From: Paraburkholderia sp. BL10I2N1
GTDB taxonomy: Bacteria; Pseudomonadota; Gammaproteobacteria; Burkholderiales; Burkholderiaceae
NCBI RefSeq assembly: GCF_004361815.1
Contig: NZ_SNWA01000002.1
Location: forward strand, 1,116,001 to 1,180,000
Length of the DNA: 64,000 nucleotides
Reading direction: 5' to 3'
Shown here: positions 3,001 through 12,829 of the stretch, piece by piece
Layout of the letters: the number at the start of each line of letters is the position of its first letter
Position numbering within the stretch: the first letter of the stretch is position 1
The notes under the pieces: model-generated
Seen by the model: the letters and a program-made list of their open reading frames with translations, nothing else
Databases searched by the model: none
Told to the model about the DNA's origin: nothing
Position numbers and translations under genes: made by a program

Positions 3001-6000
3001 CGAGCCATTGGCGGCTGTCCTTCAGCGTGAAGAAGAACGGGTCGGTGGTCTCCTGTCCCGGACAGTTCATGTTCGGTGCGCCGTCGGAACGGAAACCCTG
3101 TGACCAGTCATCCCAGCTGGAGGTCTTCGTCGTGTCCACGAGCGTCAAGCTCTGCGTCCCGTCCGCGGCGGTACCTTCCTGATACAGGTTTACCGTGACG
3201 TTCGGCACATCCGGCGTCCAGCTCGTGTGGATCAGCAGCGCGGGATCGTCGAACGGACGCGTCGACGCGTAAATGACCTCACCCTTGATGCCGCCGTTTT
3301 CGGTCGGGCCGAACGGCGCCTTGCCGAATTCGATGAAGGAACTCTGGCCGGAGAACCCCTGCCAGCCCTCCGTGGTCACCCACGGCGGGTCGACTCTGCC
3401 CGTCGATGGGTTCGTGCCCGAACGGTCGGTACAGTCCGCATCGTTGCAATACACCGCGCCTGGCACGCGCAGTTTCGCGGGCAGGTGCGCCGTCGCGGAT
3501 TCCTGCGTGTTGGCGAAGTTGGCGGCAATGTTCGAGCTGCCCCCACCTGGCGTCCCATCGGGCGGGCCACCCGCGTCATAGACCACATGGACGCCCGTCT
3601 GCTTGAAGCGGGTTGTATCCGCTTCTGCGATGTACCAGTTGAATAGCGGGAACACTTCGTTAAACCCGGCGTAGCCGTTCAGGTCGGTGTTGTTGAAGTT
3701 CGAATAGCTGCCGTCGCGGAAGCGGATATTGGTCGGCACCAGCGTCAGTCCGGGCTCGCTGGGCTGCGACACGCCGTCTCCGTTGAGATCCAGAAAGGTC
3801 CGGGTATAGAGATTCGTGTGCCATTGGAGCACCGGGATATCGCCGAGACTCGCGCTTTGGCCGCCCGCCAACTTGACTGCCGTCGCCAGCCCGTCGACGA
3901 TCTGATCGTTCCACTGATCGAAGATGGTGATTCTGTACGTGCCGTCGGGCAGACCGGAGAAATTGAACGTACCGTCGGGCTTGCACTTCGTGAACGAAAC
4001 GTCTTCCCCGTCCGTGTCGCCAATGCTCACGTAACACTGCGTGAAACTCAACGAGTCGCGCGACCCCGAGCCATACAGATTCTGGTTAGGCGGACGGCTG
4101 TAGTGCAGATTTGTGATCCGGCCGTTGACTGAGTTGTTGCACGTGGTTGTGCCCGTGCAGAGAAGAGGCAAGCGGGCATTGATGATTTTCGGATTGGCAA
4201 AGCCGACCGACACGTGGAAGCCCGCCGGTCCGAATTCCTGGAAGTATGCCGGCCCACCTACCTTGATGAACGCGTCATGGGCCTTCTGTCCATCCAGCGT
4301 GTTCGTTTGTAGCCACTCTTCTCCCCTGCCGATTCTGTCGGCGCCTGGCGTTGCAACCACGCCGTACCGGCCGGGCATCAGGTTGGCGATAACGGCCTGG
4401 CCGATGAGCGGCGATAATGTCTTGCCGTCCGACTCGTACTTCGGACACGTCGGAATCATGCCCAGCAGTCCGTCGTTCGACGTTGTCGAAATCGGGCAGG
4501 CGTTGAGTCCGGTGGCCGGATCGATCGTCCCCTGCAACGAGTTGGACAGCGGCATGTTGAACATGTCGTAAGTCATCTGGCCGGTTGGATCGCCGGTGCC
4601 GCCCGCGTCGTCAAAGAGCTTGATTTCGAAGCCGCCGAGGCCCGGCTCGTGGGCCGTGCCGAACGTATCGGTTCCGCCGCCGACGTCCACTTCACCATTG
4701 AGCGGCGCGTCGTCCTCGAACACGAACACCGAGACCTTCGCCGTCGCGAACGGCGTTTCTTGCAGCAGCACGTTGACACTGGTCTGTGCGGGTGCGATTG
4801 GCGCCCCGCCCATGCTGTGTCCACAGGTGCCCGTACCCGGCGCAAAATCCGCCGTTGTCGGGCAATCCTTCCCAATGTCGAACGGTCTCATCCCGCTGGG
4901 ACTAGTGGAATCCGCCTTAGGCGCGCCCGCCCCGTTCGTGAACGTGTTGCCGGCGTCGCCCGGCAGAATCGAGATGTAGTAGTGTTTAGTCGGATCGAGC
5001 GCCACCTGACGGGGGTCGACCGGCAACTGTTGCGACGCGTTCGTGCGGCACGCGCCATTGCCGACGTCGCACACCGTGGGCAGATGCGAGTTGCTCGCCG
5101 GATCGTACACCGTCTGCCCCGACTCGCACGCGACAGTGCCGACGCAGCCCGCTGCAATCACCGGCATGTAGCTGGTATGGAAGCTCGTGCCGAGACTGGG
5201 AACCGGCAGCGGCGGACACGTGGCCGGACGCGGTGTCGTGTTCACCTGGCATGCGGGATCGATCTGGAAAGTACGGTCTTCCTCGATGATCCAGCGGTAG
5301 TCGGTAAGCTGAATCGGGGTCTTGCCCGGCGCCGTGCTTGGCGCATCCAATACCTTGACGACAAGTCCGCTGCCGCCCTTGAACGTCACCGTCACGGTCG
5401 CGGCAGCGCTCGACGTGTTCTGCGAATTCACTGCCTTGTACTGGAACTTCACATTAGCCGTCGCATTGCCGACGGGCGGCACCGAGGGAATGGCGGTAAA
5501 CGACCCGTCCGCGTTCAACGTGACGGTCCCACCGGTCACAGCGCCGGAAACCGACGCGGTGAGCGGAAGCCCGGCCGGATCGTGGGCGTAGGCCAGCACG
5601 CCGGGCGCGCCGATCTGCAGCCGCGACGCGATGTTGCTGGTGTAAGTGCCATTGGCGGCCACAGGCGAACCAGACAGGCAGCCCGAACCAGCGGTACAGG
5701 CGGCCAGCGTCACCGTCGCCGTCAGCGCGGGATTGCCGTTCGCCTGATACACAAAGCTGTCGGACGTCGTGCCGGCGTTGGGCACATAGGTGAACGTGCC
5801 GTTCTGGTTCAGCGTGAGCACACCGCCGGTAGGCTGTGTCTTGACCTGCACGCCGTAAACACCGACATCGTTGGCGATCACGCCTCTCGCCGGGTCAGAC
5901 ACGCTCACCGTGCTACCCGCGACCAGGAAGTACTTGTCGGGATTGGCGATCGCATTCTGATTGGCGGCCGCCGCCGTCGGCAGCGCGCCGCTATTGACGC

Positions 6001-7255
6001 TGATGTAGCCCTGCATCCCGCCATCGCGCTGATTGTTGGTCGATAGACTCAGTTGGCGGTCGAACACCGGAAGCGCTAATGCGCCGGTAGCGGGTGCGTT
6101 CAGCAACACGTCCTGTGTTTTGCCAGCCGCCAGAAATACTTCCGACTGGACGCGCGCATTGCCGGGCAACACGTTGCCGTCTTCGGCAATCAACGAGAAA
6201 CCGGAAACAGCAGGCGTGCCGGTTTGAGCACCGACCACCGACGGAACGTGCATCCGCAGACCGGCGTTCACGAAGCGCACGAGCACCTGGCCCGTCCCGG
6301 CAGGCGCGGTGGCGGTAAACGAAGACCCGCCGGCATTGGTCCGGTCGAAGGCGACGCCGTTGATCAGGTAGTAGCGCGGATCGTAGTTCACTGCCGGCGG
6401 ATAGCAGGTGCCGAACGCCGTCGACTTCGAATCGCCGCAGCCGCCGGGCTGACCCGACCATGCCATGGTTTCGCTGAAGCCCGTCGTCGTCACTGCCGCT
6501 GCGACAGCCGTGTTTTGGACGGGATCGATTTCGCTCAGCACGAGCGGTACGTCGGCGTCATAGCAGATAGCCGGATTGGTATAAGCCTGATACAGCTGCG
6601 ACGCCACCGGGCAGGTCACGCTGCCACCGACCGGCGCCTTCACCACCAGCACGCCGTATAGCCCCATCGGTCCCTGGATCGACGGATGCGTTCCCGACTC
6701 GATCAGATAGGTGCCCGGGCTCAGGTTGTTCCAGGTGAGCGCCGTAGTCTTGCCGGTCGCCACCTCGGTTGCAAACGACTGGACCCGATTCCCCTGCGTA
6801 GGCGGCGTAAATGTCGCGCCGGTCGCACTGCTGGCAATCGGCCAGGTCGTCGAGGTTTGCGGCGGATGCGGCGGACTCGGCACGTTCACCGCTGTCGTCC
6901 CAAGACCGCCGCCCAACTGCCCCACCACGACGAGCGAGGTCGGCACGGCGCCGGGCAAGCTATTGGTGAGATTGATCGTCAGCGGTCCTGGCGGCACGGT
7001 AATCACCACCGGCGACCAGTTCGCTCCGGCGCCCGGATTCGCCGTTGTACACGTAGCCGGCGCCACTGCTGCCGGCGTGCAGGTGTAGCCCCACATCGGC
7101 ACAGCCTGCCCGTCGGGCAACGTGGCGGTGGCCGCTTTTGCTGTCAGATTGACGACTTGAGCGAAAGACACGCCACTGGCCGTAAGAAGAATGGACGCCG
7201 CGACTCCTGCCTTAAACACGTCGAAGAGGGTCGCCTTAAACTGGGTGGATCTCAT
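1..7255 (-). CDS. Giant secreted multidomain protein with degenerate cupredoxin head and beta-helix tail (3' end beyond window)
   Basis: The frame stays open from ATG 7253-7255 to the left edge, 2,418 codons without a stop, so the C-terminus is missing. A GGAG sits 8 nt upstream. Residues 1-32 form a Sec signal peptide ending SGVSFA. Residues about 33-330 look like a multicopper-oxidase/cupredoxin region with the family phrase MGLYGVLVV near residue 197, but the usual copper-ligand histidines are absent. Then follow Ig/VCBS-like repeats (around residue 460-620), SdrD-like beta domains (around 1100), a calcium-loop-like LDLNGDGV stretch near 1160, an IPT/TIG-like region (about 1770-1920) and, from about 1935 on, an Asn/Gly-rich right-handed beta-helix (repeated NNxI, GGG and SNN turns). 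It is the last gene of a three-gene operon, 17 nt after an oxidase-like gene. Function is unknown; a surface or exported scaffold or partner of the two upstream copper proteins is my inference. Confidence 0.85.
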   Translation of the reverse strand, partial: MRSTQFKATLFDVFKAGVAASILLTASGVSFAQVVNLTAKAATATLPDGQAVPMWGYTCTPAAVAPATCTTANPGAGANWSPVVITVPPGPLTINLTNSLPGAVPTSLVVVGQLGGGLGTTAVNVPSPPHPPQTSTTWPIASSATGATFTPPTQGNRVQSFATEVATGKTTALTWNNLSPGTYLIESGTHPSIQGPMGLYGVLVVKAPVGGSVTCPVASQLYQAYTNPAICYDADVPLVLSEIDPVQNTAVAAAVTTTGFSETMAWSGQPGGCGDSKSTAFGTCYPPAVNYDPRYYLINGVAFDRTNAGGSSFTATAPAGTGQVLVRFVNAGLRMHVPSVVGAQTGTPAVSGFSLIAEDGNVLPGNARVQSEVFLAAGKTQDVLLNAPATGALALPVFDRQLSLSTNNQRDGGMQGYISVNSGALPTAAAANQNAIANPDKYFLVAGSTVSVSDPARGVIANDVGVYGVQVKTQPTGGVLTLNQNGTFTYVPNAGTTSDSFVYQANGNPALTATVTLAACTAGSGCLSGSPVAANGTYTSNIASRLQIGAPGVLAYAHDPAGLPLTASVSGAVTGGTVTLNADGSFTAIPSVPPVGNATANVKFQYKAVNSQNTSSAAATVTVTFKGGSGLVVKVLDAPSTAPGKTPIQLTDYRWIIEEDRTFQIDPACQVNTTPRPATCPPLPVPSLGTSFHTSYMPVIAAGCVGTVACESGQTVYDPASNSHLPTVCDVGNGACRTNASQQLPVDPRQVALDPTKHYYISILPGDAGNTFTNGAGAPKADSTSPSGMRPFDIGKDCPTTADFAPGTGTCGHSMGGAPIAPAQTSVNVLLQETPFATAKVSVFVFEDDAPLNGEVDVGGGTDTFGTAHEPGLGGFEIKLFDDAGGTGDPTGQMTYDMFNMPLSNSLQGTIDPATGLNACPISTTSNDGLLGMIPTCPKYESDGKTLSPLIGQAVIANLMPGRYGVVATPGADRIGRGEEWLQTNTLDGQKAHDAFIKVGGPAYFQEFGPAGFHVSVGFANPKIINARLPLLCTGTTTCNNSVNGRITNLHYSRPPNQNLYGSGSRDSLSFTQCYVSIGDTDGEDVSFTKCKPDGTFNFSGLPDGTYRITIFDQWNDQIVDGLATAVKLAGGQSASLGDIPVLQWHTNLYTRTFLDLNGDGVSQPSEPGLTLVPTNIRFRDGSYSNFNNTDLNGYAGFNEVFPLFNWYIAEADTTRFKQTGVHVVYDAGGPPDGTPGGGSSNIAANFANTQESATAHLPAKLRVPGAVYCNDADCTDRSGTNPSTGRVDPPWVTTEGWQGFSGQSSFIEFGKAPFGPTENGGIKGEVIYASTRPFDDPALLIHTSWTPDVPNVTVNLYQEGTAADGTQSLTLVDTTKTSSWDDWSQGFRSDGAPNMNCPGQETTDPFFFTLKDSRQWLDAQHRALPAHSQFKCYDGMHVFNQLQPAPYDGMYQFPSVTATSPTTGKPTATNCAICVANPSGDGTRMLPAGKYVVEVIVPPGYELVKEEDKNILIGDNYIAPVTQQFGGLGNIFILPDQAAMNSTYNRNSAQNSTSDLGSSPRHEGDTGSVETFWPCVGALRIVPDYISLFPGSKEVAPFAGASRHLCDRKEVTLTNQMSVLAKFWLFSSTHVAAHYTGFMLDDFSAEFDPYSPQFGEKFAIPNVPISMKDFAGNEVARVYSDSWGIFNGLNYSTWEVNPPNPTGYAPTMMVACMNDPDKPDPANPGKTIRDPLFNPAYSQFCYEIPFMPGQTQYMDTPVVPVQAFADGYNPPDCAYPDATPAISTVTGDSSGGGAGPWVSASGHTLTIKGLGNQQVPNHAYNGPAATATPFNQKFVTRHYGFGSRPSTCPAVGPCQNVTIGGVPMNNVSWSDLTITGQVPLLVPICPLQQRGIPVLSVARCGELVITAANGKKSIDTVTVTVAGKAPTYVNGENATSNAIQTAIDKATPGDMIVVGPGTYNEMLLMWKPVRLQGVGATAVTVNANTHPSGKLDPWRRQINCLFGDALNGGLISASNPYDPNGRYSCSSTMQRKVDAIPFEPTTGWDFNLNGNLSELLIEPTLMGAYEGAAITVLGKGVKDVVVGGVTQADPNCIANGICTPLAGPVLPILPTSNPPDCVNNPGNFKCNPSRIDGMTFTNSSQGGGGIFVHGWNHNLEISNNRVFSNSGTLTGGITVGQVETPDGTIGGTDGVTELPFAFNTAVNVHHNAVTSNASYGDEINSTTPSSAGGVTFCTGADYYHFNYNWICGNMSSGDGGGVAHFGFSYNGDISHNWVLFNQSNNPTLPTYGGGVIAQGVPPDGTFCENATVDVDCAPELSDGVGPGLVIDGNLIVGNTAESGKGGGLRLQNVNGTDVQRSPSNQNAWYQVRVINNIIANNVAGWAGGGVSLQDAVRVSFVNNTVVSNDATASAGVLFNTS

Positions 7256-7272: not shown

Positions 7273-8925
7273 CTAATTGGATTCGTCAATCAGGAAAACC
7301 TGTGGATCGACGAGCATCATCATCATCATTCCGCCTGGAAAGATGTTGTTCGTGGTGATCTCGCGCTCGTTATGCGAGTGCCACATGAATGCGAAGCCTG
7401 CTTCGGTTGCCGGTGGATTCGCGATCGTCCCGCTCGGCGGCGTCGTCCCTGTGGGCGAGGTGGCGCGTATGGTCGCGTCCGGCCCGAGATAAGGACTACC
7501 GCCATACCAGGTGCCGTTCGTGAAGAGGTGCGAGTCCGGCAGCGTGACCGGCCCGCCGCTGCCGACATTGCCGAACGGATGCGCTTCGAGCGCCTTGCCG
7601 TGATCGGCGCACCACTCGTAGTAGTTCGGCGCATGCGGATCGGCCGTGTAATAGCCGTTCGCGTCCGGGATGCAGACGACCGGCTTGCCGACGTAAGCCG
7701 CGTATTTCGGATCGGTTTCGGTATACAGGTCCCCAGGCTTATGCCCATAGACATCCCAGTTCAGGCCCTTGCCCGTCCAGTAGAAAATTCCGTCCATCGC
7801 GAGGCCCGGCGTCGTCGTCGTCGTGAACAGCAGCGGTCCGGCTACCTTGGTCGGGTCCGTCTTGCTGAGAATCATGTTTCCATCGCGCGCCAGCACCCGC
7901 ACGTGATTGCCGTGCTCGTGGAACGGATGCTGCCAGCGGCCGGTGCCGATGATCCGCAACAGCACCAGTTCCCCCGGGTGCATGTGCGGATTGCCGTTGT
8001 AGGGCTGATGCGGATACTGCGCCGCATAGTTCGGGTCCATGTCGTCCGGCATCGAGCGGCCGTTGACCATGAAATAGGCCGGGTGATAGGGCTCCGTCTC
8101 GACGGTCATGCAACCGTTCGGCGACGTGCATGCGTTCGCCGCCTGCTGTTCCGCCTGCGTATGGATGCGCGGATCTATTTCGGAGAACTGGAACAGATAC
8201 TCGCGGTCGTAACAGGCCGCGCTGTGGTTATAGGCCGCGCTGGCATTGCGGAAGTCCGGTTGCCCATCCGGCAGCGTCGCCGCGACCGCGCGGCAACCCG
8301 TAGGCACCGCAACCGTGCCGGGTGCGGAGGTCGGCAAAACGATGATCGCGCCAAACAGGCCCATCTCGATCTGCAGATCACCCTGGGTGCCGCTGTAGTA
8401 TGCATGCGTGCCGGGCGTCGCCGCGACGAAGCTATACGTGACCGTGGCACCGTGGGCGGCCTCGCGGGTCAGCAATCCCGGCGAGCCGGTGAGCGCGGCA
8501 GGACAGGTCCCGTCGGGGTTCAGCACCGCGGCGCAGACCTGGAATCCCGGAAAGAGGATCGACGTGTTGCCCGCCGCCGCCGGCAGGTTATTGGTGAGCG
8601 TCACCGTGACGACGTCGCCCTGCTTGACGATCAGTGTCGGACCGGGAATCTGCATACTCGGACAGTTCGCGCCCGCGATCGTGGACGGCGAAAAGCCGGC
8701 CGGCGCCGTGCGGCATCCATAGCCCCACGAATAGACGCTCGCGCCGTCGGGCTGGGAGATGCGGTTCGCCTCGGCGCTCAGATCGAAGTGCGTCCCCGTG
8801 ATGCCGGGCGCGGCGGCTTGCGCGTGCATGCAGACGAGCGTGGCAAGCGTCGCCGCACCGAACCGTGCCAGCCGCCCAAGGCGCGTCAGCATGGCGACCC
8901 ATGTTTTGTGAGTGATGTATCCCAC
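7273..8925 (-). CDS. Multicopper-oxidase-like exported protein, subunit carrying HPxHxHG and HSH motifs
   Basis: A 550-residue cupredoxin-type protein. I chose GTG at 8925 because AGGAG lies 7 nt upstream and the start follows the upstream stop (8936-8938); an ATG at 8892 would also leave a full signal peptide (ending MHAQAAA). The C-terminal half holds HPFHEHG (H333, H336, H338), the classical third copper motif, and near the end WHSHNERE (H516, H518), where canonical oxidases have HCH. The type-1 copper cysteine is therefore missing. The N-terminal domain keeps the fold phrase MGLFGAIIV but has lost the motif-II histidines. A Met run (GGMMMMML) follows the last motif. The neighbouring 521-residue protein supplies the other two HxH motifs, so the two probably work together. 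Substrate is not readable; phenols, Mn(II) or Cu(I) are possible by family. Confidence 0.8.
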   Translation of the reverse strand: MGYITHKTWVAMLTRLGRLARFGAATLATLVCMHAQAAAPGITGTHFDLSAEANRISQPDGASVYSWGYGCRTAPAGFSPSTIAGANCPSMQIPGPTLIVKQGDVVTVTLTNNLPAAAGNTSILFPGFQVCAAVLNPDGTCPAALTGSPGLLTREAAHGATVTYSFVAATPGTHAYYSGTQGDLQIEMGLFGAIIVLPTSAPGTVAVPTGCRAVAATLPDGQPDFRNASAAYNHSAACYDREYLFQFSEIDPRIHTQAEQQAANACTSPNGCMTVETEPYHPAYFMVNGRSMPDDMDPNYAAQYPHQPYNGNPHMHPGELVLLRIIGTGRWQHPFHEHGNHVRVLARDGNMILSKTDPTKVAGPLLFTTTTTPGLAMDGIFYWTGKGLNWDVYGHKPGDLYTETDPKYAAYVGKPVVCIPDANGYYTADPHAPNYYEWCADHGKALEAHPFGNVGSGGPVTLPDSHLFTNGTWYGGSPYLGPDATIRATSPTGTTPPSGTIANPPATEAGFAFMWHSHNEREITTNNIFPGGMMMMMLVDPQVFLIDESN

Positions 8926-8935
8926 GGCTCTTCTC

Positions 8936-10501
8936 CTAGGTGCAGGACTTCTTGATCGGGTCCACCGCATTGCAGATGTGGACCTCGGTCATCAAGCCGC
9001 CAAAGTTCTCCTGGTCGTTGGCCAGGTGATCGAGATTCGGCGTGTACAGGTAATAGATCGCACCCGGCTTGTATTTCGTCGTGTCGCTGGCGTCGAGGAT
9101 CACATCGATCGATTCGCCGCCCCCCAACGTGATCGAGTTCGTGTTGTAGGTCAGGTCGTTGCCAGACATGTCGCGCAGCAAGCGGGCGTTGATACCGACC
9201 ACGTGCATCGGAATGCCAAGCGACGCCAGCGTCTGAAACTCGGTGACGTCCAGGTCCGAGATCCGCAAGAGCGCCCTGCCGCCAGCCGGAATATTGATCA
9301 GCGACGGCAGCGGTTGCGAAAAATGCTGCGTGCCGTCTGCCACCGCCGTCTGCATCGGCCCCTGAGTCACCGTGTCCGGATAGCTGCGCCCGTTCAACAT
9401 GAAGAACTTGTCCTTCATGTCGGTGAACGGCTCCGGATTGAACGTCATGCCCACGAAGTGAAAGTTAGGATCGAAGCCGTGTATCTGCACCGGGTATTCG
9501 ACGTCGTAGGCGGTCGAACCGTCGCCGTCGTTGTACGCGTACAGCGTCGGCGTACCGCTCTTGTTGTTCACGTGGAGAACGCCGTTCTGAGGCGGCAGCG
9601 GCGTCGTGCACAGAATGTCGTTGCCGCACGCCGTGCGCAGATCCAGTTGTTGCTTCTGTAGCGAGCTGTACAGCGACGCGCCGCCGGGAACGCGGTTCTG
9701 GCGCGGCCGCACGAAGATCTGGCCGACCATGCCCATCTGCAAGTGTTCCGGCGGCGTGATGTGGCAGTGCCAGAAGTAGGTGCCAGCATCCGGCGCGAGG
9801 TAGTAGTACGTGAAGCTCGCGCCAATGTTGATTGCCACCGACGCGTCCGGCACGCCGTCATAGAACGACGATGCGTTCGGGTAGCCGTGGAAGTGAACCG
9901 TGTGTTGCTCGAACAGGTCGGGCCGCATGATCATTCCGACGTTGGTCAGCGTGAGGAAGAACTCGTCGTCCTCGTCGATCGCCATCGTCGGCGCCGGCAT
10001 GTTGCCGTTCATCACACCGATATCCATGATCGGTCGCGGATCGACGTGGCCTGTCAGCTGGCCCGGTGGCACGGATTCCGGATCGGGGACGAGGCCGACC
10101 GCGCCGTTATAGGTCGGGTCCGTCCTCGGGTCGCCGACGGTGTTGAACACCGAGGCGAACTCGGTGCCGGGAAGGCCCGCCTGGATGTCGGCGAGTCCGG
10201 ACAAAGGGCCAAAGGCGAACAGGTACGTCTGCGTACCGTTACCCATCGTTGCGTAACCGTCGCCGCCCGAGATCTGCTGGCACTTGACCGCGCCATTGAC
10301 GACGCCTGTCGAGGTGGAACTCTGTCCGGTGTAGGACGGCCCGGTGTAGGCGGGTTCAGGCGCTCCGGCAGGGAGCGCCGTCGGATGCGCCGGCGTGGTC
10401 GGAGGGCATTGCACCCGGAACGACTGGGCGAATGAAGGAATAGCGAACAGCATCAACAGCAGCGCAGCAACACTGCCGAGATAAGCGCGGGTACTGAACA
10501 T
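8936..10501 (-). CDS. Multicopper-oxidase-like exported protein, subunit carrying HxHG and the type-1 copper HCH motif
   Basis: A 521-residue protein with a Sec signal peptide (about residues 1-25, ending IPSFA) and GGAGG just upstream of ATG 10501. Residues 203-206 are HFHG (first copper motif), and residues 245-258 are HCHITPPEHLQMGM, giving type-1 ligands C246, H253 and M258 with two extra residues between Cys and His compared with the usual HCHxxxH. The type-1 site sits in the N-terminal cupredoxin domain, as in some two-domain oxidases. The C-terminal domain has only a degenerate third motif. It is the first gene of the operon, followed by the HPxHxHG-bearing partner 10 nt later. Known for the family: four HxH motifs bind a trinuclear copper centre. 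Inferred: here the centre would form between two polypeptides. Confidence 0.82.
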   Translation of the reverse strand: MFSTRAYLGSVAALLLMLFAIPSFAQSFRVQCPPTTPAHPTALPAGAPEPAYTGPSYTGQSSTSTGVVNGAVKCQQISGGDGYATMGNGTQTYLFAFGPLSGLADIQAGLPGTEFASVFNTVGDPRTDPTYNGAVGLVPDPESVPPGQLTGHVDPRPIMDIGVMNGNMPAPTMAIDEDDEFFLTLTNVGMIMRPDLFEQHTVHFHGYPNASSFYDGVPDASVAINIGASFTYYYLAPDAGTYFWHCHITPPEHLQMGMVGQIFVRPRQNRVPGGASLYSSLQKQQLDLRTACGNDILCTTPLPPQNGVLHVNNKSGTPTLYAYNDGDGSTAYDVEYPVQIHGFDPNFHFVGMTFNPEPFTDMKDKFFMLNGRSYPDTVTQGPMQTAVADGTQHFSQPLPSLINIPAGGRALLRISDLDVTEFQTLASLGIPMHVVGINARLLRDMSGNDLTYNTNSITLGGGESIDVILDASDTTKYKPGAIYYLYTPNLDHLANDQENFGGLMTEVHICNAVDPIKKSCT

Positions 10502-10989
10502 ATGACCTCCGTCCCAGGGGTCAGCCAGCGCGACACGCGCCGGGCGTCATGCTCTACTGCAAATGCGGGCTGCATAATTTCTTACATCGGCCCGTATCTG
10601 GATTTTGGACAAGAGCGACGGAGCCTGGGATGGGTCACCCCCCTACACTTGCGGTAGGGGGCAACCTAGCGGCGTTGTTCAGACCGGTCGGAGCACGCAT
10701 TTGACGGCGCGGTGGGCTCGGGCCGTGGTGTTGTTCAGACACCTGTACTCCGGGTGCAACGGCGCGTTGCGCTCTAGGTACATAGCGGGTCTTTACCCAT
10801 GCCGTTCGGAGGGAATCCCTACTGCTTTTCGTTGATTACCGACGCAAGAATGAAACAGCAGAATGCACCCTCGCGGGCATTTGGACGACTCAGGGTGACA
10901 GCGGGTTCGGGCCAGGATGAGGTCCGCATCGTCGCGCTACTGCCCTTGATATTTCCTGCCTCACCATTGAATTGCTGAAGGATCACATC
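10502..10989. other. Intergenic region between the copper-protein operon and the MXKDX gene
   Basis: About 490 bases lie between two divergent genes. I see no convincing gene. The region holds an 8-bp perfect hairpin or operator (listed separately) and an 11-base direct repeat GTTGTTCAGAC at 10674-10684 and 10730-10740, 56 bases apart. It must contain the promoters for both the minus-strand operon and the plus-strand gene, but I could not assign clear -35/-10 boxes. Confidence 0.5.
10639..10661. promoter_or_regulatory. Perfect inverted repeat upstream of the copper-protein operon
   Basis: CCCCCTAC (10639-10646), 7-base spacer, GTAGGGGG (10654-10661). The arms are perfectly complementary. It lies about 140 bases upstream of the first operon start and has no T-tract, so an operator for a dimeric regulator is more likely than a terminator. 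No regulator gene for it is recognisable nearby. Confidence 0.45.
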
Positions 10990-11256
10990 ATGAACAAGTT
11001 AGCCGCCACCCTTCTCGCCTGCTGCGTGATCTTCCCGACCGCGGGCGCCTTCGCTGCCGATAGTACGTCGAACGACCCCGTATCCAAAGACGCGGTGAGT
11101 CAGGAGACCACGGCAAACGATGCAACGGAACACGACGCGATGAGCGCCGACAGTATGGCCAAAGACGGGATGAAAGAAGACGCGATGAAGGAAGACACAA
11201 TGAGCCATGACAGCATGGACAAAGATGCAACAAAGAACAACGAGGTGACGCAGTAG
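10990..11256 (+). CDS. Periplasmic MXKDX pentapeptide-repeat protein
   Basis: An 88-residue secreted protein. ATG 10990 follows AAGGAT at a suitable distance. Residues 1-23 are a signal peptide (hydrophobic core LLACCVIFPTAGAFA). The mature part is highly acidic and hydrophilic, built of loose five-residue units such as MAKDG, MKEDA, MKEDT, MDKDA with many Met, Asp, Lys and Ser. This matches the small family called pentapeptide MXKDX repeat protein, common in Burkholderiales and of unknown function. The Met/Asp-rich composition and location beside a copper-oxidase operon suggest metal binding, but that is only an inference. Confidence 0.8.
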   Translation: MNKLAATLLACCVIFPTAGAFAADSTSNDPVSKDAVSQETTANDATEHDAMSADSMAKDGMKEDAMKEDTMSHDSMDKDATKNNEVTQ

Positions 11257-11330: not shown

Positions 11331-11978
11331 TCAGTGAGTCAACATCTTGAACGCGTGGTGCCAGTCGCCCCGGAGGAATCCCGGTAGGCACCACAGCATG
11401 CACAGCGGTTCAATCGCCCGTGACGATACGATGCTTCCACAATCGTAGGGCTCCCAGCCGAACTGCCGGATGATCCCGGCTACCTGGTCTTTCGCGTCGT
11501 CGTCGTTGCCGCACAAAAACATGGTCGGCGTGCCTTCCTCGAAGCGCGGATTCACCATCAGCGCATTCCCAACGCTGTTGAAAGCCTTGACCACATGGGC
11601 CAGCGGAAGCTTCGCCTGAATCCACTCGCCGAGCGACTCATTCGGCCCCGTCGTATATTGCAGAACCCCGCTGGCCGGCGGGTCGTCGGCAAGCGGGTTG
11701 GTCGCATCGATGACCGTCTTGCCAGCGAGATTCTCCGGTCGCGCAAGCTCGATCACGCTCGCGGCAATCCGCCCGAGCACGGCGAGCACTACCATTTCGC
11801 CGAACCGCGCGGTTTCGTCGAACGTCCCGGCCTGGGCACCGGCGTTTCGACGAACCCAGTCCTGTACCTCTTTCTTTCGCGGATCCCGCGTTCCCAGCAT
11901 CGTGTCATGGCCATGCTTGAGGAAACCCGCGCCCAGCGCCCGGCCAACCTCTCCCGATCCCAATACGCCTACTTTCAT
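11331..11978 (-). CDS. NADPH-dependent F420 reductase-like oxidoreductase
   Basis: A 215-residue protein that opens with a Rossmann nucleotide-binding loop (VGVLGSGEVGRALGAGF, residues 3-19) and continues with TRDPRK, the NADP-type second strand. VVLAVLG, KTVIDATNP and VKAFNSVGNALM follow in the order typical of the F420-dependent NADP reductase / ProC-like fold. Length is normal for the family. Burkholderia do not make F420, so members here probably use another carrier; the substrate is unknown. A second, more divergent member lies just upstream on the same strand (12021-12683), suggesting a small operon under the divergent LysR gene. Confidence 0.78.
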   Translation of the reverse strand: MKVGVLGSGEVGRALGAGFLKHGHDTMLGTRDPRKKEVQDWVRRNAGAQAGTFDETARFGEMVVLAVLGRIAASVIELARPENLAGKTVIDATNPLADDPPASGVLQYTTGPNESLGEWIQAKLPLAHVVKAFNSVGNALMVNPRFEEGTPTMFLCGNDDDAKDQVAGIIRQFGWEPYDCGSIVSSRAIEPLCMLWCLPGFLRGDWHHAFKMLTH

Positions 11979-12020: not shown

Positions 12021-12683
12021 TCAAGAATCCCTCTCGTGGGTCGTGCCCCCGGTTGTCTCCCGCATCAACGACAGTCCGACCCGGGTGCCAAACCCGCGCG
12101 CATAGGCAAGTTGCACCAGCAGCATGGCTGCGGGTTCCACGAAGCGGGCAAGGACGAGCGGTCCTGCATCAACCGGCTCGGCCTCTATGTCGCTGACCAG
12201 TTTCGCGACCACGGCTCGCGCTTCGCTGTCGTCACCACAGACGAACACGCCGACGCGTTTGCCGTCGATCAGCATGCTGGGCGAATGCAGCATCTCTGCG
12301 AACGGCGGGATCGCCTTGACGACCCTTGCCCATGGCACAAGTTTGGCGATCTCTTCCGCGCCGGAAGTGTTTGTGCCGACGAGCAGGCCGCTCATGTCGG
12401 GGTTCAGCGCATTGGTGCAATCCCACAAGATCTTTTTCCGCGGTGCGTCGCCGACCTGCTCGAGTGCCACAGAGGCGGCAGTCCAGGGCGTGGCCAGCAC
12501 CACCACGTCCGCGAACCGTACCGCTTCAGCGACCGTGCCAACGCTTGCGCCGAGTGCGGCCGCGGTCGTTCGGAGCCTTTCCATCTCAAGGCTGAAGCTC
12601 AGCATCACTGAATGACCGGCGGGGACGAGATGCTTCGTCAGACCGGTTCCCACGTTCCCTGCACCGATGATTCCGATTTTCAC
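12021..12683 (-). CDS. NADP-binding F420 reductase-like protein
   Basis: A 220-residue protein. I chose GTG at 12683 because GGAGG lies 6 nt upstream and the Rossmann motif (KIGIIGAGNVGTGL) starts at residue 2; a longer frame to 12731 has no such support. Features include VVVLATPWTA, KILWDCTNALNPD and WARVVKAIPPFAEML, the usual strand order of this fold. The dinucleotide discriminator after strand two reads SFSLEME, unlike the TRDP of its neighbour, so cofactor preference may differ. It lies 42 bases upstream of the other reductase-like gene and diverges from a LysR regulator 146 bases away. Confidence 0.75.
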   Translation of the reverse strand: MKIGIIGAGNVGTGLTKHLVPAGHSVMLSFSLEMERLRTTAAALGASVGTVAEAVRFADVVVLATPWTAASVALEQVGDAPRKKILWDCTNALNPDMSGLLVGTNTSGAEEIAKLVPWARVVKAIPPFAEMLHSPSMLIDGKRVGVFVCGDDSEARAVVAKLVSDIEAEPVDAGPLVLARFVEPAAMLLVQLAYARGFGTRVGLSLMRETTGGTTHERDS

Positions 12684-12829
12684 GATCGCGCCTCCTTCAG
12701 ATACGTCAGATCTCAGGCGATGTTTGCCCATGACCGCCTGACGGTTACATCATGAAGCTCATTTTCGGCGCGATGGCGATGCTGGTCTATGCTATGAAGC
12801 GTTCAAACAGTTGTGAGCGAAGGTGCAAA

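Follow-up and report, generated by a model that had tools for sequence, protein, structure and literature searches.

A candidate multicopper oxidase of Paraburkholderia probably built of three different proteins where its known relatives use three identical ones

In this article, I will discuss three adjacent genes of Paraburkholderia sp. BL10I2N1, here called P1, P2 and P3, found in a stretch of 64,000 nucleotides (positions 1,116,001 to 1,180,000 of contig NZ_SNWA01000002.1, hereafter the window), which to judge from their sequences probably specify a multicopper oxidase (MCO) made of three different proteins rather than the three identical ones of its known relatives. The copper ligands are divided between P1 and P2, and the N-terminal module of P3 (P3-N) is a third, ligand-free copy of the same kind of protein. 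As far as sequence can tell, the division of the ligands and the strict pairing of the two genes are real and conserved, and the whole is best read as a two-domain MCO turned heterotrimer; it is likely that P1, P2 and P3-N form a secreted ring of six domains with one trinuclear copper cluster shared by P1 and P2, the assembly, stoichiometry, copper loading, location and activity being what I infer from these patterns. A first-pass annotation, made from the DNA letters alone, had already proposed a split oxidase of P1 and P2 and called such a split unusual. This is true in that the cluster would lie between two different gene products, but a cluster that crosses chains is in itself ordinary in two-domain MCOs. 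The heteromeric reading has gained from the complementary ligands, the strict pairing and the retention of both in distant relatives, but it had missed the third, copper-free paralogous module.

Both open reading frames (ORFs) lie on the minus strand exactly where that annotation placed them, and every residue it named is there (H203, H205, H245, C246, H247, H253 and M258 in P1; H333, H336, H338, H516 and H518 in P2; Table 1). P1 has a complete type-1 copper set in domain 1, consisting of H200, C246, H253 and M258; the single type-1 site had been recognized from the last three, but H200 (in HTVHFHG), which completes the set, had been overlooked. The same domain provides half of a trinuclear set (H203, H205, H245 and H247), and domain 2 is free of ligands, while P2 has the other half in domain 2 (H336, H338, H516 and H518) and no type-1 Cys. 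Neither protein alone thus possesses a full ligand set, P1 having only the pairs of domain 1 and P2 only those of domain 2, and each has one domain without motifs (the second in P1, the first in P2), just as had been claimed. The same cannot be said of the "exactly four" HxH pairs: the two conserved halves do complement each other, but P2 has a fifth HxH, H314/H316, which is constant in 25 close homologues and is nonetheless unlikely to be a ligand pair because divergent relatives disrupt it (PRLH in genome G246, HML in G426). The HxH counts of two in P1 and three in P2 compare with means of 0.42 and 0.82 in shuffled sequences. P2 starts at a GTG (8925) that lies 10 bp past the P1 stop, in keeping with the tight spacing of adjacent genes noticed before; the alternative ATG at 8970 would run into P1, and the close P2 homologue P0123 has a Met at the position of the GTG. 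Two further candidates were set aside: a conserved acidic run of P1 (D176-EDDE) as a metal site, where divergent triads have FQEGDE or ELKEGN and EXXE is too common a pattern, and the long antisense ORFs across P1 and P2 (for example 7372-8955 on the plus strand), which were treated as shadow frames.

Table 1. Positions of the genes, motifs and neighbouring features (window coordinates unless a locus, L, is named; aa, amino acids)
Feature	Position	Strand	Description
P1	8936..10501	-	521 aa, MCO-like ORF; Pfam Cu-oxidase_3 (5.7e-16) and Cu-oxidase_2 (7.5e-12)
P1 HTVHFH (H200, H203, H205)	9887..9904	-	type-1 His and HxH pair 1; aligned to HTIHWHG of 3g5w
P1 HCHITPPEHLQMGM (H245, C246, H247, H253, M258)	9728..9769	-	HxH pair 2 and remaining type-1 ligands; aligned to HCH...H of 3g5w
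P2	7273..8925	-	550 aa, MCO-like, GTG start; Pfam Cu-oxidase_3 (6.9e-11) and Cu-oxidase_2 (2.6e-6)
P2 HPFHEH (H333, H336, H338)	7912..7929	-	HxH pair 3; aligned to HAMHSHG (2zwn) and HAIHTHG (3g5w domain 2)
P2 HSH (H516, H518)	7372..7380	-	HxH pair 4; colinear with HDH of 2zwn domain 2
P3	2..7255, leaves window	-	2746 aa in the genome, end at L140 7015; cupredoxin pair, then Big_9/cadherin/SdrD_B repeats
P3-N	5996..7150	-	residues ~36-420 of P3; two-domain cupredoxin module, zero HxH
Two tandem LolA-like exported proteins	L140 5643-6461, 4779-5621		past the giant gene, both on the minus strand; Pfam below cut-off
Cytochrome c/periplasmic-binding-like protein, perhaps MofC-like	L140 3082-5094	-	downstream of the oxidase genes, outside the window
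496-aa protein with N-terminal haem motif CVACH	L140 1191-2681, ~5.3-6.8 kb beyond window base 1	-	no Pfam/NCBIfam match above cut-off
Dihaem cytochrome c	L140 345-1121	-	downstream of the oxidase genes, outside the window
Type II secretion parts (secretin with cohesin domain, GspE ATPase, pseudopilin)	L088 3888-6407, L055 2-1750, L051 6694-7638		

The two proteins have lost opposite halves. A profile alignment of their first domains (prob 97.5, E 6e-12) puts H200, H203, H205, H245, C246, H247, H253 and M258 of P1 opposite T121, L124, P126, Y177, S178, G179, Q185 and L190 of P2. Conversely, an alignment by eye on conserved flanks puts IPMHVVG of P1 domain 2 at the site of HPFHEHG and YTP at that of HSH; the only His left at these P1 sites, H433, is a His in 68 of the 109 loci described below. 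Each chain is minus one half, and the halves that survive are the two that would form one site together. As a separate observation, position 177 of P2, facing the first His of the P1 HCH, is a His in L139, L147, L148, L149 and L103, perhaps as a relic of an ancestral site.

The third member of the set begins 17 bp past P2. In hhalign, P3-N matches the P2 family at prob 99.5 and E 5e-23 (99.6 in a local rerun), the match running from domain 1 into the beginning of domain 2, and the module is found in 78 of 80 loci of a P2-based scan, the other two terminating just past P2. In a maximum-likelihood tree of 39 chains, P1, P2 and P3 form one clade each (100/100, 96/91 and 100/97), with one main split common to all three, namely G246 with G712, G776 and G877 against the rest; by these profile and tree comparisons P1, P2 and P3-N are of common ancestry. 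I claim no order of duplication, because the tool warns that the grouping of P1 with P3 deep in the tree could be spurious and that two G246 branches are long. The repeats that follow are also described as being of cadherin/Ig type. P3 is short in G246, with 693 aa, and can be as long as ~3,500 residues.

How widely does this arrangement hold? None of the copper ligands varies among 25 P1 and 25 P2 homologues, picked by hand from close matches. A larger set of 109 loci joins the best 80 of 169 relatives, from a scan of genome contigs with the P2 alignment, to 29 from genomes of the family, and these are not independent since some of the 29 repeat contigs of the 80 (e.g. L031). The 80 come from Paraburkholderia, Burkholderia, Trinickia, Pandoraea, Cupriavidus, Collimonas, a Sideroxydans metagenome-assembled genome (MAG), Acidobacteria and MAGs labelled Gamma- or Deltaproteobacteria, and the protein family as a whole is seen in Paraburkholderia, Ralstonia, Cupriavidus, Collimonas, Gallionellaceae and Acidobacteria. 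Individual ligands are retained in 105-108 of the 109 P1 and 108-109 of the 109 P2 loci; of the P1 exceptions, two loci (L080, L101) are truncated where their contig stops, and in two others (L087, L107) an in-frame stop misled the extraction of the ORF, both motifs being present in their alignments; the P2 exception is an interrupted gene (L138). P1 lies immediately upstream of P2 on the same strand at every one of the 109 loci, with -5 to 255 bases between the matches, and at none are the two fused. Searching separately with P1 and P2 through 299 genomes of the family (E <= 1e-40), the same 29 were found to have both and 270 neither, so that no genome there has one partner only, and the occurrence is patchy (8 of 25 genera). 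Further afield, of 398 genomes sampled from the phylum two have a strong P1 match, the source genome and G246, with the remaining P1 matches (E <= 0.001) reaching 4e-17 at best; among 399 genomes of the order the P2 profile matched seven, all of them with the triad (six belong to the twelve lineages described next and the seventh is the source locus), and viral contigs gave no match. Twelve lineages, chosen by hand, all have P1, P2 and P3-N contiguous and in that order, with gaps of -14 to 126 bases between P1 and P2 and -4 to 29 between P2 and P3, and all keep the same 13 residues (eight in P1 and five in P2 including H333) down to 46-49% local identity; by tblastn the identity of G246 is 35-37%.

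Among solved structures, the P1 and P2 profiles find as top relatives the two-domain oxidases 3g5w, 2zwn and 3gdc, which I take to be of type C, consistent with the position of the Cys in the alignments, although the nitrite reductase 9cck outranks 3gdc for P1. Like these oxidases, each chain of the triad consists of two cupredoxin domains; a type-1 site in the N-terminal domain is found in P1 alone, P2 and P3-N having none, and no chain carries both trinuclear halves (P1 has the pairs of domain 1, P2 those of domain 2, P3-N zero). Two other identities were tried and dropped, a nitrite reductase of the NirK type (TIGR02376; P1 34.2 and P2 31.2 bits against a cut-off of 296.3) and a CopA-type protein (TIGR01480; 36.2 and 38.3 bits against 478.95), the latter appearing as a "CopA family" label on a P2 homologue in one source.

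If the paralogous two-domain chains close into a ring as in the two-domain MCO homotrimer, one of the three interfaces between a domain 1 (D1) and a domain 2 (D2) would be complete, that of P1 D1 (type-1 copper and two HxH) with P2 D2 (two HxH), and the O2-reducing trinuclear cluster would sit between them. The interfaces P2 D1/P3 D2 and P3 D1/P1 D2 would be copper-free and structural, and electrons would enter through the type-1 copper of P1 to reduce O2 at the P1/P2 cluster, with the repeats of P3 perhaps holding the enzyme at the cell surface or in a matrix. A heterotrimer with a single active site would fit such a set of three chains, in which one interface is intact and the other two are empty. 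A fuller account, somewhat less likely than not to be right in all its parts, has an obligate heterotrimer arising by gene triplication and complementary loss of sites, in which the third copy turned into an anchor without copper on a repeat protein and the product serves as an extracellular oxidase near cytochromes, perhaps for metal ions.

Several results weigh against the heterotrimer. Searched as a single sequence, P2 finds the laccase 4f7k and Fet3 interleaved with two-domain matches, and its domain 2 segments, at 6.4 bits (HAMHSHG of 2zwn), 10.2 (HAIHTHG of 3g5w) and -1.3 (HDH), are singly insignificant and count because they are colinear; a search of solved structures with just domain 2 of P2 gave nothing relevant and a single irrelevant match. 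Fold predictions, made on the natural stretch with P1 and P2 in one frame and the stop codons read through, were too poor for judging the interface, both with the 32-row alignment A4 (predicted local distance difference test, pLDDT, 41.5; predicted template-modelling score, pTM, 0.34) and with the 98-row alignment A7 (pLDDT 62.0, pTM 0.47). In the fold comparison, which covers residues 523-1024 with P1 outside, two-domain MCOs are among the top matches but nitrite reductases tie with them. The Foldseek matches of the second model (laccases, ceruloplasmin, coagulation factors and, at rank 8, Mnx as 9bxa) have a query TM <= ~0.22 and a root-mean-square deviation > 20 and were not used as evidence. 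The profile match of P3-N to P1 is weak (prob 58.6), the linkage of P1 to P2 was ascertained partly through P2 by the way the 80 contigs were taken, and no natural P1-P2 fusion appears in the best 120 (598-717 aa) of 2468 matches to a linked query. Lastly, in addition to its pair, G426 contains one or two more P1 copies for which no partner P2 was found; these are on contigs C17 (L172) and C69 (L173), are 85% identical over residues 1-373 and stop exactly at the contig ends.

What, then, of explanations that do without the heterotrimer? P1 and P2 might share their trinuclear site as a heterodimer or a larger alternating ring, in which case P3-N would be no third protomer but a relic or just a homologous adapter; the want of any HxH in P3-N, its slight likeness to the P1 profile and a repeat tail that could function alone all speak for this; I think it unlikely, however, because the module is close behind P2 in 12 of 12 chosen lineages and 78 of 80 loci and forms a single clade that divides as P1 and P2 do, and because a dead third protomer is required in a three-fold ring that has a single site. 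It is decidedly improbable that the proteins form separate homo-oligomers with no common cluster, P1 as a blue-copper carrier or nitrite-reductase-like protein and P2 as a copper-binding accessory. The type-1 site of P1 is indeed complete by itself, copper nitrite reductases are among its PDB matches, and the extra P1 copies of G426 would suit such a carrier (their ends may fall in assembly gaps), but a P1 homotrimer would be without the His of the second domain (H433 in 68 of 109 loci, the C-terminal HxH lost), both HxH pairs that P1 keeps would be superfluous for a protein with a type-1 site only, its 34.2 bits are set against the nitrite reductase cut-off of 296.3, and the strict pairing with P2 would be left without an explanation. 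The total of six cupredoxin domains and the cytochrome and SCO1-like companions, which recall mof/ompB clusters as described in PMC5566968, could be taken to mean that a six-domain oxidase of the MnxG/MofA type has been split into three chains; this is very hard to credit, for in the bacterial six-domain MCOs described in PMC3600357 the type-1 copper belongs to domain 2 and the trinuclear site lies where domains 2 and 3 meet, whereas here the type-1 site falls in domain 1 and the partner pairs, counted in gene order, in domain 4, and two-domain MCOs are the top relatives.

To return to the heterotrimer, the genes around it offer a context for its possible function. These were surveyed in 21 regions, 19 of them of 16.5-20.0 kb starting at or extending past P2, together with L142 (18.0 kb) and L140 (12.0 kb), the queries being taken from L140 (the source genome) and L142, which therefore match themselves in the counts. 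A small exported protein is present in 21 of 21 regions, LolA-like protein(s) and a cytochrome c/periplasmic-binding-like protein in 20 each, the 496-aa CVACH protein in 13, the dihaem cytochrome in 12, and in 8 there is a chaperone like SCO1. The cytochrome domain matches of the source genome are below Pfam cut-offs, those of G246 for cytochrome and SCO1 above, and the CVACH protein may by its look be a fused cytochrome-porin, the rest of it possibly a barrel. Type II secretion genes near the oxidase loci of some relatives suggest a possible route of secretion. From this context I would guess that the enzyme oxidises metal outside the cell, with Fe(II), Mn(II) and Cu(I) as possible substrates. 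On the other side of P1 and divergent from it, the window has a small pentapeptide MXKDX repeat protein (10972-11256, plus strand; TIGR02953, 53.9 bits), followed by two genes like F420-dependent NADP-oxidoreductases (11331-11978 and 12021-12731, minus strand) beside LysR regulators, which are unrelated to the oxidase.

If the heterotrimer is right, what would it mean? It has been proposed that two-domain trimers evolved into six-domain rings such as ceruloplasmin (PMC3600357), and the triad would be a natural intermediate on this path in which the copies specialise before fusing, arriving at a ceruloplasmin-like ring of six domains through specialisation of subunits instead of gene fusion. 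Neither of the two annotated "multicopper oxidases" would then be an oxidase alone, so that assays of single genes would be misleading.

Compared with known systems, the triad is closest to the two-domain MCOs, described as trimers of one chain with the trinuclear site between two identical protomers (PMC13151041); 3g5w, 2zwn and 3gdc share with it the two cupredoxin domains per chain and the type-1 site in domain 1 (here of P1), have between chains the trinuclear site that the placing of the ligands would predict for P1 and P2, and differ from it in that here each chain has half or zero of the ligands, the chains are three paralogues and one site is possible. The first-pass annotation had named the Mnx complex (MnxE3F3G) as the nearest analogy, and that place now goes to the two-domain trimer: Mnx would be like the triad in being a multi-subunit MCO and perhaps in its link to metal oxidation, but MnxG is described as its only MCO (PMC5622069). 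MnxG and MofA, moreover, combine six domains and all ligands in one chain, a fusion found at 0 of the 109 loci. The published MofA/OmpB clusters may resemble the triad in their extracellular MCO with MofC-like cytochrome c/periplasmic-binding and, in some, SCO1 neighbours, and OmpB is described with a fibronectin domain, but theirs is a single MCO chain and the six-domain family has its copper sites elsewhere. Ceruloplasmin and other six-domain blue proteins are likewise described with six cupredoxin domains and one trinuclear interface, in a single polypeptide. I found no report of copper ligands divided in this way in the open-licence PMC literature, though print elsewhere may differ. Tandem MCO genes, on the other hand, are already in print, since three extracellular ones are described for Sideroxydans lithotrophicus ES-1 together with mofC-like genes (for proteins of cytochrome c plus a periplasmic-binding domain) and copper-chaperone genes, in passages that give no functional clues and no analysis of copper sites (He et al., 2017, PMC5566968). 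The comparison with the triad follows that published description, and with P1, P2 and P3-N all present in the Sideroxydans MAG (L107), and G848 having the triad along with cytochrome/periplasmic-binding-like and SCO1-like genes, the ES-1 genes probably belong to the same family as P1, P2 and P3.

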